Source: a virus
DNA length: 23,027 nucleotides
IMG/VR virus record: IMGVR_UViG_3300008012_000216
Coordinates: 1 to 23,027 of that record
Direction: 5' to 3' (one strand)
Shown here: positions 1-10,739 of the stretch, piece after piece
Layout of the letters: the number at the start of each line of letters is the position of its first letter
How positions within the stretch are numbered: the first letter of the stretch is position 1
Translations under genes and position numbers: made by a program
Notes under the pieces: generated by a model
Seen by the model: the letters and a program-made list of their open reading frames with translations, nothing else
What the model was told of the DNA's origin: nothing
The model's database searches: none

Positions 1-34
1 ATATAAGTTATAAATCATAAAAATCAATTTAAAT

Positions 35-3603: not shown

Positions 3604-4959
3604 TTACTTTTGTTTTTTTATTTGTTTTTTATTAATTAAATTGGCAATAGTTGTAATAAATTTAGGACCAGGGCCTATTTTATCACCAATTGGTAAGCCA
3701 GCATTTTTTAGTTTGTTAAACAATAATTTAAATGATCCCTTTCCTTGTATAGGTTGCCCATTGTATTTTGCAACACCTCCAAAAAAGTATTTACCAAATG
3801 CCTCAGCTGTTGTGTCGCCAAATGACCAATCCTTTTTTTGTTTGTAAAATCCATTGTCTATTAGAAATTGTTGTATATCCCCGGCATTTGAAGTTACGAG
3901 ATCAACTTCTAATTGTTTAACTAATGGAATCGCATCAAGTGATTTTTTTGAATATGTTGGTATTTTTTGTTTTTGATTCATTAACTTGTCTAATTCATTT
4001 TCAACTTCAGTGTAACTCATATTTTTAATGTCATCACTTACATTAGCGTCTTCCAATGCTTGTGCGCATGCAATTGCTATTTCTTTGCTTTCTATTGTTG
4101 CATTGAAATCTTTTTTATCTAATCCCAGGTAATAATAAATTTTTATCCATGCTTCAGTTAAATCTTTTTTAATCACTGACTCGGTACCAAAAAACATTCC
4201 CAACGTTAACGCGCCTTTACCTAACGCTGTAATAACTTGTTGAATTGTAATTAATCCTTTTTTTAATGCGTACTGTATATAAAATATTGCCATTGCAGCT
4301 CGGCCTGATGTTACTTTGGATACTAACGCAGAAAATGATTTGCTAAAATACTTTTTTACCTGATCTGTTGTTGCTGCAACAGTTGCTTTAGTAAAAATTG
4401 TCTGTACAGATTTAGGATTTGATATGATGTATTCAACTGCTTGTTTTTCTTGTCGTGTTAATTGCTGTAATGCTTTTTTCTGAATATTTTTAGTGTTTTT
4501 AACATTTTTAAAATAACTTAAAACTTTATTCCAAGATTGTTTTCCTAATTTTAATACAACTGGTGCATATGCATCTATAAATCTCATTGCTCCTAACATT
4601 GCTAATGTCTCAACAACTGATACCCCGGCTTTATAATAGTCTTTGTCGTCAAATACATATACTGCGGCATCTAATAATCCTAATAGTCCATATGCTAAAT
4701 ATCCTGGTCCACCTGGTATAAAAATAGCAATCATTTGTGCTGCTTGTATTATTTCATGTGGGTGATTTACTACAAAATCTGCTAAATCTTTTCTTGCTTG
4801 TGATTGTTTTTCTGCATTACGCACAAGTTCAGCTGCAGTGTAATTGCCAGATAATCCGTAGTCAGATTGACCCGGCATTAAATTATCTGGTTTTTGTTCT
4901 TGAACAAAGTTTAATTCTTCTCGTATAATCGATTCTAGTAAATTTGCGGATTCTTGCAT
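3604..4959 (-). CDS. Putative virion-internal protein, PG-binding-like motif
   Basis: This 451-residue protein is unrecognised as a whole. The N-terminus (MQESANLLESIIREELNF) is an amphipathic helix with several L/I-x-E sites, as in the other two minus-strand proteins. Hydrophobic segments lie at about 70-103 (a Gly/Pro-rich 'IAIFIPGGPGYLAYGLLGLL'), 112-128 and around 250-285. Residues about 361-394 show the pattern of a peptidoglycan-binding type 1 repeat: 'IQQFLIDNGFY', then 'DWSFGDTTAEAFGKYF', comparable with the family's 'LQ..L...Gy....D..fG..T..Av..fQ'. The tail is lysine-rich. It leads the two-gene minus-strand operon. A virion protein acting at the cell envelope during entry is plausible, but the domain match is by eye only. 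Confidence 0.7.
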   Translation of the reverse strand: MQESANLLESIIREELNFVQEQKPDNLMPGQSDYGLSGNYTAAELVRNAEKQSQARKDLADFVVNHPHEIIQAAQMIAIFIPGGPGYLAYGLLGLLDAAVYVFDDKDYYKAGVSVVETLAMLGAMRFIDAYAPVVLKLGKQSWNKVLSYFKNVKNTKNIQKKALQQLTRQEKQAVEYIISNPKSVQTIFTKATVAATTDQVKKYFSKSFSALVSKVTSGRAAMAIFYIQYALKKGLITIQQVITALGKGALTLGMFFGTESVIKKDLTEAWIKIYYYLGLDKKDFNATIESKEIAIACAQALEDANVSDDIKNMSYTEVENELDKLMNQKQKIPTYSKKSLDAIPLVKQLEVDLVTSNAGDIQQFLIDNGFYKQKKDWSFGDTTAEAFGKYFFGGVAKYNGQPIQGKGSFKLLFNKLKNAGLPIGDKIGPGPKFITTIANLINKKQIKKQK

Positions 4960-4994: not shown

Positions 4995-5035
4995 ATTAGG
5001 ATATATGCAAAATTTTTCTTATATTTATATTATAA
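4995..5035 (+). promoter_or_regulatory. 41-base conserved promoter-like block (copy 1)
   Basis: This block lies in the 100-base divergent gap ahead of the CAP gene. It aligns without gaps with a block at 7536-7576 ahead of uvsE. Both copies have ATTAGGAT, then TGCA seven bases on, then TTTTTCTTATATT, then ATA and TATAA at the same spacing. The end of the block resembles a -10 element (TATAAT at 5031-5036). It also contains an ATATTTATA at 5021-5029. The block is most simply a promoter, possibly early, used by two accessory genes. Confidence 0.55.
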
Positions 5036-5059
5036 TTAAATAGTTAAACAATTAAAGTT

Positions 5060-5575
5060 ATGAAAAAGTTATTATTATTATCTGTGTCGTTATTGATTAC
5101 CGCTGTGAGTTTTTCACAAATGTCAGAATCAGATCCAATGTTAAATTTCTTTATATCAAAGAATAAAAAAACAATAAAAAAATATTCAATTGATTCTATA
5201 GAATTAACAATTGTTAATCAGATTAACAAACTTCGTAAATCTAATGGATTAAATGAACTAGAAATTGATATTAATTTAAATACATATTGTAGCGCACATT
5301 CGCAAAATCAATTAGTATCTAATGAAATATATCATAGTGATATACAATCTAATAGTATTACGTCTGAAAATTGTTATATATTAAAAGTGTTTGGAGGCTG
5401 GTGGCCGTTGGATTTAAAACAGTTATCTTCAAAGATATATGATAGTTGGATTACTTCTAAACTTCACACTAGAAATATGTTAGTTAGTGGTAATACTATA
5501 GGTATAGCAATAGAATTATACCCAATTAATTCAGGTGCTGGATATGATATTTCGTCTACCATGGTAATACGATAA
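5060..5575 (+). CDS. Secreted CAP/SCP-domain protein
   Basis: This is a 171-residue exported protein of the CAP (SCP/PR-1, PF00188-type) family. Residues 1-20 form a typical signal peptide: two lysines, a leucine-rich core and 'AVSFSQ', with no lipobox cysteine, so it is likely cut by signal peptidase I after residue 18-20. The mature part shows CAP landmarks in order: an N-terminal helix 'INKLRKSNGLNELEID', His80 in 'YCSAHSQNQ', Glu103 in 'SENC', then 'WITSKLHTRNML' (His136) and 'GNTIGIAI'. The two His and the Glu fit the conserved CAP cavity. At 171 residues it is near the minimal family size. It is the only plus-strand gene in the inverted island and has its own promoter-like block. Its role in infection is unknown. 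Confidence 0.75.
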   Translation: MKKLLLLSVSLLITAVSFSQMSESDPMLNFFISKNKKTIKKYSIDSIELTIVNQINKLRKSNGLNELEIDINLNTYCSAHSQNQLVSNEIYHSDIQSNSITSENCYILKVFGGWWPLDLKQLSSKIYDSWITSKLHTRNMLVSGNTIGIAIELYPINSGAGYDISSTMVIR

Positions 5576-5578
5576 CAA

Positions 5579-7480
5579 TTATCCCCAACTTGGACAGCCG
5601 GTCGATCTACCTTTAAATACAGGCATAGGAGCTCCTCCCGATCGGCTTCCTCCACCCATTTTCTTAATACCAGTCCCAATCTTTTTAACACCTCGTTTAA
5701 ATTTACGTTTCATTCCTGTCCAATCTACTCCTGCGGGGAATTGAACATCTATTAACATTTCTGGTGTACCACCTACTAGAAAATCTTGTATTACTTCTTG
5801 TTTAGCAAGTAACTCCGGTATTCGTAATTGTATTGTAAACGCACATGTAGATTGCCGATATTTGGCATATACTGATTCATATTCTTGTTTTAATTGAGGG
5901 GTCGATCGAAGACCATAAAAACGTTGAGGAGTAATTTTTGGATCACGAGCATATGCTTGTTGAAACAATGGACCATAATCCTTTATAGTAATTTGTGTGC
6001 CATCTGGTAACTTACCTCCAACACTCATCCATTCAGGACCAACATTTGGATATAAAAATTGTTCCGATGGACCTTCAACGTCAAACTCATTCAATGTGTC
6101 ATTGTTTTCAATTAATTCTTTCATTTTAGCAATCATTGCATTGTATCTACCTGTTGCCAATGGTATATTGTTAGCTTTATTAGATCTTCTACGTTTATCG
6201 CCATATGTAGTATTTACTGTGCTAGTAGAACTATATGCTGAGTATTGAAATGATATTATTTCCATATCCGGCACATCGGTATTTACTTGAGCTTTAATTG
6301 CTTCCACTTTTTGTTGATATTCTTGTATAAATGCTGCAGCTGCTTGAATTTGTGCATTCAATGCAGTTTCTGCTTGTGATGATACACTTATACTATTGTC
6401 AGCAAACATAGATCTACCCATGGCATTACGCTGTTCGCCTTGTGGAATGTTTAATGGCGGAAAACAAAATATTGGAGAACTAATATCACTCATGGTAGCT
6501 TCCTTCGTTATCTCGGTGTATTCAGACCAACCTGATTTTATTTCTGACATTTGATTTGTTATCGAAATACTCTTTGCAGCCATTATTGCTTTTGAAAAGT
6601 TACTCAATGCTTTTTTACCTTCTGCATCTATTACAGATTTTTGTAATGATGAAATGACATTTGTTTTAATTTGTGATAAATTAGCACCTGACTTAGTCAT
6701 ATCAACTTTTAAGTCACCACCATCCGTATCAACCGTCAAAATTTTAGCTAATCCTGCATCTTCACCACTAAATATATCAACAAAATATTCTAATATTTCT
6801 TTTACTGAACTATAATATTCAGCGTCTTCCCAAAAACTATCTCCAGCTTTATCCAGTTTAACATTTGTATTTGAACTATTTTTAATTTTGTTAATTACAA
6901 TTTTAACATCACTTCCAATTAACATTAACTGTTTAATAAAGTCACGTACATCATCGGAGTCAGTAAACGACAATCCTTTTGCATTATATGCTTTTATTTC
7001 TTGTTGTAATTGTTGAATATATTTTTTTAAATTATTAGCTATATTTGTGTCACTATATAATTGAGGCACGGTAATTATTTGTTCTAAGTTTGTTAATGCT
7101 TGACTAATTGTTCCTAAATCTTCTTTCTGATCTTTTTTCTTTACTTTAGGTTGCTTGGCGCCACCAAATACAATATTATCAAATACCCATGCTTTGAGAG
7201 ATGCTCTAGTTTCTTTAGAATCGTTTTTTGCAAACCAAGCCATCATAGCTTCATACTCAGGCATATTTAAAAAAGATCCTCCAGATTTAGCATCTACTTC
7301 TTTGACAAATTTAATTATCAATTCTAACTTAGCTTTTTCCCAAGTCTTTTTTCCGCCTTCAGACCAATCAGTTAAATCTTCATTTTGTTCTGTTAAGAGT
7401 TGTAATATATTATTAACATTGGATTCGGTTAAATTCTTAACCCCAAATCTAAGCATATTTTCTGCTAAAATACTTTTCAT
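5579..7480 (-). CDS. Large putative virion-internal protein, 633 aa
   Basis: This 633-residue protein is mostly helical and matches no family I know. The N-terminus (MKSILAENMLRFGVKNLTE) is amphipathic with Leu-x-Glu sites at residues 5-7, 17-19 and 29-31, again like capsid-targeting sequences processed by a gp21-type protease. Residues about 380-405 are an alanine- and glutamine-rich helix. Around 405-460, 'ISFQYSAYSS' followed by 'NNIPLATGRYNAMIAKMKEL' is faintly like an OmpA-type domain (a strand, then N..L...R and a helix). The C-terminus is very basic and glycine-rich (KRKFKRGVKKIGTGIKKMGG) and could bind DNA or membrane. The stop lies three bases from the convergent CAP gene. Size and N-terminus suggest a packaged or ejected protein. 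Confidence 0.7.
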   Translation of the reverse strand: MKSILAENMLRFGVKNLTESNVNNILQLLTEQNEDLTDWSEGGKKTWEKAKLELIIKFVKEVDAKSGGSFLNMPEYEAMMAWFAKNDSKETRASLKAWVFDNIVFGGAKQPKVKKKDQKEDLGTISQALTNLEQIITVPQLYSDTNIANNLKKYIQQLQQEIKAYNAKGLSFTDSDDVRDFIKQLMLIGSDVKIVINKIKNSSNTNVKLDKAGDSFWEDAEYYSSVKEILEYFVDIFSGEDAGLAKILTVDTDGGDLKVDMTKSGANLSQIKTNVISSLQKSVIDAEGKKALSNFSKAIMAAKSISITNQMSEIKSGWSEYTEITKEATMSDISSPIFCFPPLNIPQGEQRNAMGRSMFADNSISVSSQAETALNAQIQAAAAFIQEYQQKVEAIKAQVNTDVPDMEIISFQYSAYSSTSTVNTTYGDKRRRSNKANNIPLATGRYNAMIAKMKELIENNDTLNEFDVEGPSEQFLYPNVGPEWMSVGGKLPDGTQITIKDYGPLFQQAYARDPKITPQRFYGLRSTPQLKQEYESVYAKYRQSTCAFTIQLRIPELLAKQEVIQDFLVGGTPEMLIDVQFPAGVDWTGMKRKFKRGVKKIGTGIKKMGGGSRSGGAPMPVFKGRSTGCPSWG

Positions 7481-7504
7481 TTATTTCCTATTAAGTTTCT
7501 TTTA

Positions 7505-7513
7505 TATAAATAT
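7505..7513 (-). promoter_or_regulatory. Candidate late-promoter motif ATATTTATA (minus)
   Basis: Read on the minus strand this is an exact ATATTTATA, 24 bases before the ATG at 7480, followed by TATAAAAG. It shows that the motif keeps its sense orientation when the gene is inverted. It shares the 107-base divergent gap with the uvsE promoter-like block. Confidence 0.45.
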
Positions 7514-7535
7514 AACTGTTTACTAAAACCGATCT

Positions 7536-7576
7536 ATTAGGATTTCTGCATTTTTTTTCTTATATTAATAATATAA
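7536..7576 (+). promoter_or_regulatory. 41-base conserved promoter-like block (copy 2)
   Basis: This is the partner of the block at 4995-5035, in the same position relative to a plus-strand start, 11 bases before the uvsE ATG. ATTAGGAT, TGCA, TTTTTCTTATATT and the final TATAA are identical in sequence and spacing. The mismatches fall between these segments. The two downstream genes are unrelated, so the conservation is regulatory and does not come from gene duplication. Confidence 0.55.
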
Positions 7577-7587
7577 AATTAAAAGTT

Positions 7588-8610
7588 ATGATTAGATTTG
7601 GTTATGCATGTAACAACATGACATTAGGCAAGGCAGGTATTCGCACCGGCCGGACAATGATTCAACGCATCTTCGAAAAAGGTGGTATGCCTTTAGCAAG
7701 CGAGCGCAGTCTGCTTAACGCAGAAGATTTACTCCCTATACTCAAATGGAATTTAGCCCATGGCATTCGACTCTTTCGCATAGGCAGTGAAATGTTTCCT
7801 CGTTGGAATCATTACGAGATCAAGGACTTGCCTGACTATGATCGTATCTGTGAGGTGTTGCAAGAAGCTGGCGACTTTGCTCGCGAGCATGGTATTCGAC
7901 TTACTACGCATCCTGGTCCTTTCCATATATTAGGTAGCCCCGATCCGGTTGTGGTTGACAATAGTATTCTCGGCCTCGAACGTCATAGCGAAATGTTTGA
8001 TATGCTTGGCTATGCTCCTAGCTTCGACAACAAGATCAATATTCATATAGGTGCCGCTTACAATGATAAGCCGGCTACTATTGCACGATGGATCAAGAAT
8101 TATTATAGACTATCAGAATCGTGTCGTGCTCGTCTTGTTATTGAGAATGACGACAAGGCATCTATGTATTCCGTTCGCGACTTATACGAGATGGTGCATT
8201 CTGCTACTGGTATTCCTATTACTTTTGACTATTGGCATCATACTTTCAATACCGGTGACTTATCTGAGGAGGAGGCATTCTTCATGGCTCGTGAAACTTG
8301 GCAGAAGCATGGTGTTACTCAATGCACTCATTACAGCGAGTCTCGCAGACGTGAGCAGCAACGAATTATAGAAGGCATTTGCGAGAAGCACAATATTGCT
8401 TGGGACGATCTCCCACAATGGCCTACCTTTGCTAAGGCATACAAAGAGTTCAGCAAGATCAAAGAGCAAGCTCATGCAGATTATATATTGACTACTCCTA
8501 ATACTTATGGCGTAGACAGCCTGGATGTTGTGGTTGAAGCTAAGGCAAAAGAATTGGCTTTGCAAAATATCAATGTAGAGTGTTGTCAAACACCATTAAT
8601 CCTAGACTAA
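7588..8610 (+). CDS. uvsE: UV-damage endonuclease UvsE/UvdE
   Basis: This enzyme nicks DNA on the 5' side of UV photoproducts and some other lesions, starting alternative excision repair. The 340-residue protein covers the whole TIM-barrel family (about 280-320 residues in bacteria). Expected signatures appear in order: 'RFGYAC' at the N-terminus, 'RIGSEMFP' (64-71), 'TTHPG' with His108, 'INIHIG' with His153, 'LVIENDD' with Glu186, 'TFDYWHH' with Asp214 and His217/218, 'CTHYSES' with His248, and a C-terminal 'HADY' plus 'VEAKAKELAL'. These are the metal-site and lysine positions of the family. G+C over 7621-7860 is 111 of 240 bases (46%), against 63 of 240 in the gp6 gene at 15001-15240, which suggests recent acquisition. 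It has its own promoter-like block. Confidence 0.93.
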   Translation: MIRFGYACNNMTLGKAGIRTGRTMIQRIFEKGGMPLASERSLLNAEDLLPILKWNLAHGIRLFRIGSEMFPRWNHYEIKDLPDYDRICEVLQEAGDFAREHGIRLTTHPGPFHILGSPDPVVVDNSILGLERHSEMFDMLGYAPSFDNKINIHIGAAYNDKPATIARWIKNYYRLSESCRARLVIENDDKASMYSVRDLYEMVHSATGIPITFDYWHHTFNTGDLSEEEAFFMARETWQKHGVTQCTHYSESRRREQQRIIEGICEKHNIAWDDLPQWPTFAKAYKEFSKIKEQAHADYILTTPNTYGVDSLDVVVEAKAKELALQNINVECCQTPLILD

Positions 8611-9789: not shown

Positions 9790-9951
9790 ATGAAAAGAAA
9801 CAAAGTTACAAAAAATAATGGTTATAAAAAATTACAGTGTAAATACTGTGATCGAATATGTCAAAGAGTTGATGTTAATGCTACTAAAGTTACATGTTGG
9901 AAATGCACTAGTGATCTAGTAAATGGCAAAGTATTGGAATTACGAAAATAA
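9790..9951 (+). CDS. Zinc-ribbon mini-protein, 53 aa
   Basis: This 53-residue protein carries two CxxC pairs, Cys17-x-x-Cys20 (QCKYC) and Cys36-x-x-Cys39 (TCWKC), spaced as in a zinc ribbon, with one extra cysteine at 24. The N- and C-termini are basic. Such mini-proteins often bind nucleic acid or adapt larger enzymes such as RNA polymerase, but nothing fixes the role here. It starts four bases after the membrane-protein stop within an A-rich run. Its place two genes before an HD hydrolase and three before the late sigma factor makes a transcription-related role conceivable. Confidence 0.7.
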   Translation: MKRNKVTKNNGYKKLQCKYCDRICQRVDVNATKVTCWKCTSDLVNGKVLELRK

Positions 9952-9968
9952 TTTAATATTATAATAAT

Positions 9969-10739
9969 ATGTTAGAAGCAAATCAAATAAAAGAAAATTG
10001 GGAAAACTTTCGAGAAGAAATCGATTTACAGTTTCCTACAAGAGCCAAACAAATTCACAAAATGTATGATGACTTTGAAGAACGAATCGCAATGATGCCG
10101 GCGTCTTCGATAGCACATTATCATAATGCATTTGCAGGAGGTTACATAGACCATGTACTTCGTGTAATGAATTGCACTCATGAATTATATAACTTATGGA
10201 AGAAACTAGGTTCAGATATGTCAGGTTATACATTGGAAGAATTAATGTTTGCAGCAATGCATCATGACTTAGGCAAAATAGGATTTCCAGGAGATGGTAA
10301 TGAAGTTTACCAAGTAGAGACTTCGGATTGGCACAGAAAGAATATGGGTCGAATGTATAAGCACAATGAAAATATTCCTTTCTCAATGGTACCGGATCTT
10401 TCTGTATGGCTTCTACAAAAATATGAAATACCAATGTCTTGGAACGAATATCAAGCTATTAAAATTCATGATGGAATGTATGATGAAGCTAATAAACCAT
10501 ATTTCGTTGCAAGAAGTGCTCAAGCTAAATTGAAAACCAATATGGCTGTTGTTTTACATCATGGTGATCATATGGCTGCTCAGATAGAGTATGAGCGATG
10601 GAAAAATCATAAAGCAGGAACTCCTACCAAAGTATCCGAAAAAAGCAAAGCAACTAAAAGCACAGCTATAAAAAACTTAGCAGAGAATAATCCAAATATA
10701 GGAAGTTCGATTGCGGATATTTTTAAGGATATATCATGA
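9969..10739 (+). CDS. HD-domain metal-dependent hydrolase
   Basis: This is a 256-residue protein of the HD superfamily, metal-dependent phosphohydrolases that act on nucleotides, cyclic nucleotides or (p)ppGpp-like alarmones. The core motifs are all visible: 'GGYIDHVLRV' with His62, the defining 'HHDLGK' (His98-His99-Asp100), a further His at 132 (KHNENIPF), 'KIHDGMYDE' with His167-Asp168, and 'HHGDHMAAQIEYERW' at 197-211. The extra His and Asp residues suggest a two-metal site. The last 45 residues are lysine-rich and probably flexible. The gene ends with a four-base overlap with the next one. The substrate cannot be told from sequence. Confidence 0.8.
   Translation: MLEANQIKENWENFREEIDLQFPTRAKQIHKMYDDFEERIAMMPASSIAHYHNAFAGGYIDHVLRVMNCTHELYNLWKKLGSDMSGYTLEELMFAAMHHDLGKIGFPGDGNEVYQVETSDWHRKNMGRMYKHNENIPFSMVPDLSVWLLQKYEIPMSWNEYQAIKIHDGMYDEANKPYFVARSAQAKLKTNMAVVLHHGDHMAAQIEYERWKNHKAGTPTKVSEKSKATKSTAIKNLAENNPNIGSSIADIFKDIS

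Follow-up and report, generated by a model that had tools for sequence, protein, structure and literature searches.

What does it mean that two unrelated genes of an uncultured phage, one for a secreted CAP-domain protein and one for the UV-damage endonuclease UvsE, are preceded by nearly the same 41 bases? The stretch of DNA that we analysed (the window) comprises 23,027 nucleotides, positions 1 to 23,027 of the IMG/VR record IMGVR_UViG_3300008012_000216, and is a 23-kb viral fragment with T4-like baseplate genes. Among annotated records, its baseplate protein is closest to that of Microcystis phage Mel-JY01 (52%), followed by an unannotated 484-kb phage at 42% and by Flavobacterium phage immuto at 39%. 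A sequence-only reading had proposed that the blocks mark a distinct promoter class, perhaps early and read by host polymerase, for acquired accessory genes. We find it likely, with a probability of roughly 0.78, that each block is a promoter of the type used by the Bacteroidota primary sigma, active early in infection and read by the host RNA polymerase. Sites of this type are called class A below.

The two blocks in the window

In an ungapped alignment the blocks agree at 34 of 41 positions, and ATTAGGAT, TGCA, TTTTTCTTATATT, and TATAA are common to both at equal spacing, exactly as first described. When 270 first-order Markov sequences matching the window in length and composition were examined, the best direct pair of 41 bases had 28-31 matches; since the observed 34 exceeds all of these maxima, the pair is not a chance resemblance. 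The orientation given in the sequence-only reading is likewise correct. Block 1 lies directly upstream of the CAP ATG at 5060 (plus strand) and diverges from a minus-strand start at 4959, while block 2 lies directly upstream of the uvsE ATG at 7588 (plus strand) and diverges from a minus-strand start at 7480. The distance from block start to ATG is 65 nt for CAP and 52 nt for uvsE, and the leaders of both are 15-28 nt long, A-rich, and without a Shine-Dalgarno sequence.

The window was scanned with a weight matrix trained solely on G012 (169 kb) and G010 (77 kb), a pair of related contigs, so that the window's own family was excluded. The two blocks scored 35.7 and 32.5, compared to 7.5 for the next best position and a maximum of 4.7 in the reversed control. 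At this strength, the claim that the block is absent from all other genes of the window is correct, but it overlooks a diverged site at 9931-9966 and a third promoter that is lost at the left end. The diverged site precedes the HD-domain gene, and strong class A sites occupy the equivalent place in relatives G007 and G010. The window's left edge falls just past the -7 box of the promoter of its first gene (35-244), which has a class A promoter upstream in all four relatives checked (G002, G005, G009, and G016).

Transcripts had been expected to start just downstream of the TATAA segment. This position has to be revised: the -7 box is TATATTTA in block 1 and TATATTAA in block 2, not TATAA, so the predicted starts (~5032 and ~7573), which we set 4 nt past the -7 element on the Flavobacterium johnsoniae model (PMC6847099), fall at or inside the TATAA segment. 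Between 4900 and 8800, a scan for general sigma70 sites returned 17, fewer than the 20.6 in shuffled sequences. No intrinsic terminators were found in the same interval, and we therefore do not claim a terminator-bounded unit.

Table 1. Features of the window, with putative promoter elements assigned by comparison with related contigs
Feature	Position	Strand	Remark
3' remnant of a putative third class A promoter, truncated at the left edge of the window	1..34	+	Alignment with G002, G005, G009, G016
Block 1, putative class A (early-type) promoter of the CAP gene	4995..5035	+	Matrix score 35.7, window's top
Block 1, -33 element TTAG	4996..4999	+	Aligns with TTTG/GTTG of relatives
Block 1, -7 element TATATTTA	5020..5027	+	Transcript start predicted at ~5032
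Secreted CAP-domain protein gene with signal peptide	5060..5575	+	PF00188, E 2.5e-6; start MKKLLLLSVSLLITAVSFSQ resembles a signal peptide
Putative class B (late-type) motif TATATTTATATAAA facing minus-strand gene 5579-7480	7501..7514	-	ATATTTAT coding-strand bias; precedes structural genes
Block 2, putative class A (early-type) promoter of uvsE	7536..7576	+	Matrix score 32.5, rank 2 in window
Block 2, -33 element TTAG	7537..7540	+	TTTG or TTTGG there in L004, L047, L063 and others
Block 2, -7 element TATATTAA	7561..7568	+	20 nt past the -33 element, as in immuto and G012; start predicted at ~7573
uvsE, UV-damage endonuclease (UvdE)	7588..8610	+	PF03851, E 3.6e-57
Diverged class A-like site TTGG-N20-TATTAT before the HD-domain gene (9969-10739)	9931..9966	+	Matrix score 5.5
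Class B motif upstream of gene starts	1574, 7480(-), 8653, 11736, 14060, 16882, 22982

Class A sites and their genes in related phages

The repetition of the block, its spacing, its conservation, and its distribution can all be followed directly in related contigs. The exact pattern occurs in ten further IMG/VR contigs, ahead of uvsE or of genes for small secreted or membrane proteins. When as many as 3 mismatches were allowed, each larger relative had 3-6 copies, all on one strand, and the reversed-pattern control gave 0. A relaxed, extended version of the pattern was present in 14 of 2.9 million viral contigs, mostly of the window's clade; the same search of 11.3 million genome contigs gave a single match, within an archaeal gene. 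A loose expression for the Bacteroidota box alone showed no enrichment over reversed sequence, and only the full spaced matrix was specific.

Relatives of 169, 160, 93, 77, and 72 kb carry from 4 to ~20 copies, lined up on one strand in arrays that precede tiny genes. In G012 and G010, class A sites recur every few hundred bases ahead of tiny ORFs, on the coding strand only, and in G025, G029, and G032 there are 16, 4, and 13 sites, respectively, in bins at the array end of the contig and few elsewhere. In the direction of the genes, the array sits just upstream of the HD-domain and baseplate genes, which is just upstream of the region covered by the window. Copies are nearly absent from the structural genes of relatives. 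Two flavours, ATTAGGAT and GTTGAC, are interspersed within one array; the second takes the form GTTGACA-N17-TATATT, which also fits a general sigma70 promoter.

Five relatives together supplied 91 class A sites, and every one of these has T-35, T-12, A-11, and T-7; G-33 is present in 98%, while -34 is divided between A (53%) and T (47%). G never occurs at -10/-9 (0/91); T-8 and T-6 are found in 84% and 69%, and at -5 there is A in 81% and G in 3%. Both blocks, immuto, and the array sites all have 20 nt separating the two boxes, which equals the spacing of Bacteroidota sigmaA promoters. Leaders 3' of class A sites are A-rich with a median of 18 nt, and only 2 of 93 have a run resembling a Shine-Dalgarno sequence, as expected for Bacteroidota. 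When a matrix was built from 23 array sites of immuto alone, the window's blocks ranked 2nd and 4th of ~46,000 positions, with the 1st and 3rd lying inside genes.

The blocks had been assigned to acquired accessory genes, and this part of the proposal is not supported: the small-gene array is where most copies are found, many members of the clade have uvsE, and of the two genes only CAP, seen only in the window's closest relatives, looks accessory. In 30 distinct related contigs, a set that was partly fetched through the block itself and is thus a biased sample, uvsE (~67-100% identity) lies directly upstream of the same 59-aa gene. It is missing from a few relatives, G010 among them, although truncation may explain its loss in some fragments. 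Its class A promoter persists in relatives to ~70% protein identity, with TTAG swapped for TTTG or TTTGG. The GC content of uvsE is 43%, versus 32% for the genome fragment, and is raised (39-44%) in every relative examined, so uvsE is possibly an old acquisition. At the place of CAP, varying signal-peptide proteins (MKKLL...FSQ) are found in G002, G004, G007, G010, G012, and G016, each behind a class A promoter. Given that uvsE is widespread and that other signal-peptide proteins stand behind the same promoter in relatives, class A promoters would therefore not be specific to acquired genes.

Class A also differs from the motif ahead of structural genes, in agreement with the suggestion of a distinct promoter class. 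This second motif, ATATTTATA(A/T), here class B, precedes many structural genes in the window and its relatives with a strong coding-strand bias (9:50 in G012, whose genes are nearly all on the minus strand, and 31:4 in immuto). In immuto, 17 of the 31 lie in structural blocks. We consider class B a probable late promoter motif.

Host polymerase and other candidate readers

From these features we infer that the sites are active as promoters, that they act early, and which sigma factor they use. An early promoter read by the host, as the sequence-only reading suggested, is the most likely interpretation given the sigmaA geometry, the arrays before tiny genes, and the near-absence of sites from structural blocks. 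Furthermore, no phage RNA polymerase was found: no Rpb2-type polymerase was detected in five relatives in a search whose positive controls worked, while a search for a T7-type polymerase was negative but had no working control and is not used as evidence. In each promoter, a -33 box TT(A/T)G and a -7 box TATATT(T/A)A would be separated by 20 nt and followed by an A-rich leader without a Shine-Dalgarno sequence. The host RNA polymerase would read the blocks at the start of infection, as it would the related array promoters before the tiny genes just upstream. The two blocks would then form the downstream end of the array and allow early transcription of CAP and uvsE, despite the position of these genes among minus-strand and structural genes bearing a different, probably late, motif.

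Several observations count against a Bacteroidota reading. The blocks have TTAG in place of TTTG at -33, and they are missing the G-5 of TAnnTTTG (in immuto, the G is one base later). In addition, the host of the phage is known only indirectly, the GTTGACA-N17-TATATT flavour fits general sigma70, and relatives encode a sigma factor of their own.

This last point gives rise to the strongest alternative. Within the array, G012 (L166:1132-1872), G010 (L167:1342-2079), and G011 encode a sigma-70 factor of ~246 aa that is RpoD/RpoS-like, with regions 1.2, 2, and 4 and no match to region 3; further loci are L168-L185. Homologues were found in 18 viral contigs (56-100%). The baseplate gene is co-present in 12 of the 19 contigs of the sigma search, at 68-79% identity, and uvsE in 12 of 17 sigma-bearing contigs. 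The ATTAGGAT flavour might then be a phage-specific (middle) promoter of this RpoD-like sigma, with the GTTGAC flavour left to the host sigma. It is consistent with such an arrangement that the factor is encoded by G012, G010, G011, and ~17 related contigs, that immuto has neither a sigma match nor the ATTAGGAT flavour, and that the conserved element, ATTAGGAT-N3-TGnA, is longer than the host consensus. However, the promoter upstream of the sigma gene is itself TTAGGA in some phages and G/CTTGAC in others, which together with the TTAG/TTTG swap at uvsE makes the flavours look interchangeable. Both flavours are also intermixed within one array, and the first copy of the sigma would need a host-read promoter unless the protein were packaged. 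Exchange of flavours at matching positions suggests that one reader serves all class A flavours. We therefore think it unlikely that the phage sigma reads or prefers the ATTAGGAT promoters, keeping the host -7 box and shifting the preference at -33. If it did, the phage would be supplying a primary-type sigma of its own, and the result would be a self-reinforcing early switch.

It is more doubtful still that the blocks serve as operators or binding sites through which a phage regulator would coordinate the early genes, with an ordinary promoter overlapping them. The 8-12 conserved bases around -33 (ATTAGGATCC, GTTGACACGC) are more than a -33 box needs, but phage early promoters commonly share extended sequence within one genome, and conservation is highest at the -7 box and in the constant 20-nt spacing. 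A recent duplication that copied an intergenic cassette from one gene pair to the other, with no promoter role, would account for L007, where a pair of blocks shows 36 identical bases and similar flanks, but this explanation is very improbable: it is contradicted by the conservation of the sites, those of uvsE being recognisable at ~70% protein identity, and by unrelated genes of distant relatives, whose starts are preceded by boxes of this spacing at a comparable distance.

If class A is indeed a host-read early promoter, these sites can be used to map promoters across a large group of uncultured T4-like phages and to sort genes into probable early and late classes from sequence alone. They would also point, at the sequence level, to a Bacteroidota host. 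A CAP-domain protein and a UV-repair enzyme would probably be made early, though their genes adjoin virion genes, and the role of the phage-encoded sigma becomes testable.

Comparison with known promoters

Promoters of the Bacteroidota primary sigma have the layout TTTG / TAnnTTTG (PMC6847099; PMC2483708). In F. johnsoniae, the -7 box has been refined to TAHHTTTG, with starts 4-5 nt downstream, and the organism's own -33 box is weak (PMC6847099). The window blocks share with these sigmaABfr promoters the 20-nt gap, the TAHHTT core, the exclusion of G at -10/-9, a predicted start 4-5 nt past the -7 box, and an A-rich leader without a Shine-Dalgarno sequence. They differ in having TTAG at -33, A for G at -5, and extended shared sequence around -33.

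Phage immuto (MW353175), which was cultured on Flavobacterium, has 35 distinct class A sites, with the array form GTTGC-N20-TAT[AC]TTTAG. The tiny-gene array accounts for 23 of them, 11 lie within 1-45 kb (DNA and nucleotide metabolism), one is at 106 kb, and none is in the ~65 kb of structural genes (0/35). Its array promoters resemble the window's class A sites in geometry, -7 box, setting before tiny genes, and absence from structural genes, whereas GTTGC at -33, a fixed AGGTATCAATAATTAAAA initial sequence, and the lack of both the ATTAGGAT flavour and a sigma match set them apart. We also noted two subtypes of class A site in immuto (2358-35489, 60930-76190), GTTGC...TATATTTAGG for the tiny-gene array and TTGGA...TATATTA ahead of genes for DNA metabolism, which are possibly early and middle promoters.

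Mel-JY01 (PP395634.1) is recorded on Microcystis and contains TTGCATAC...TA(A/T)ATTTGTA sites, for example at 69083, 69445, and 129956. Since these sites agree with the consensus of Bacteroidota promoters, it may be worth re-examining the host recorded for this phage. A literature search that left most subscription papers outside its coverage yielded no description of these promoters, and none of immuto transcription or of Mel-JY01.

As is proposed for class A in the present T4-like phages, the early promoters of T4 are a host-sigma series with an extended consensus, located before small early genes. They differ from class A in that the host sigma class, and with it the -7/-10 box, is a different one. 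Class B similarly differs in sequence from the T4 motif TATAAATA. The MotA-dependent middle promoters of T4 pair an element specific to the phage, near -30, with a downstream box of the host type; no activator was identified in our analysis of the present phages, and here, unlike in T4, TTAG swaps with TTTG and GTTG at one position. On the sequence comparisons made here, class A is probably a new, clade-specific version of a known promoter type.
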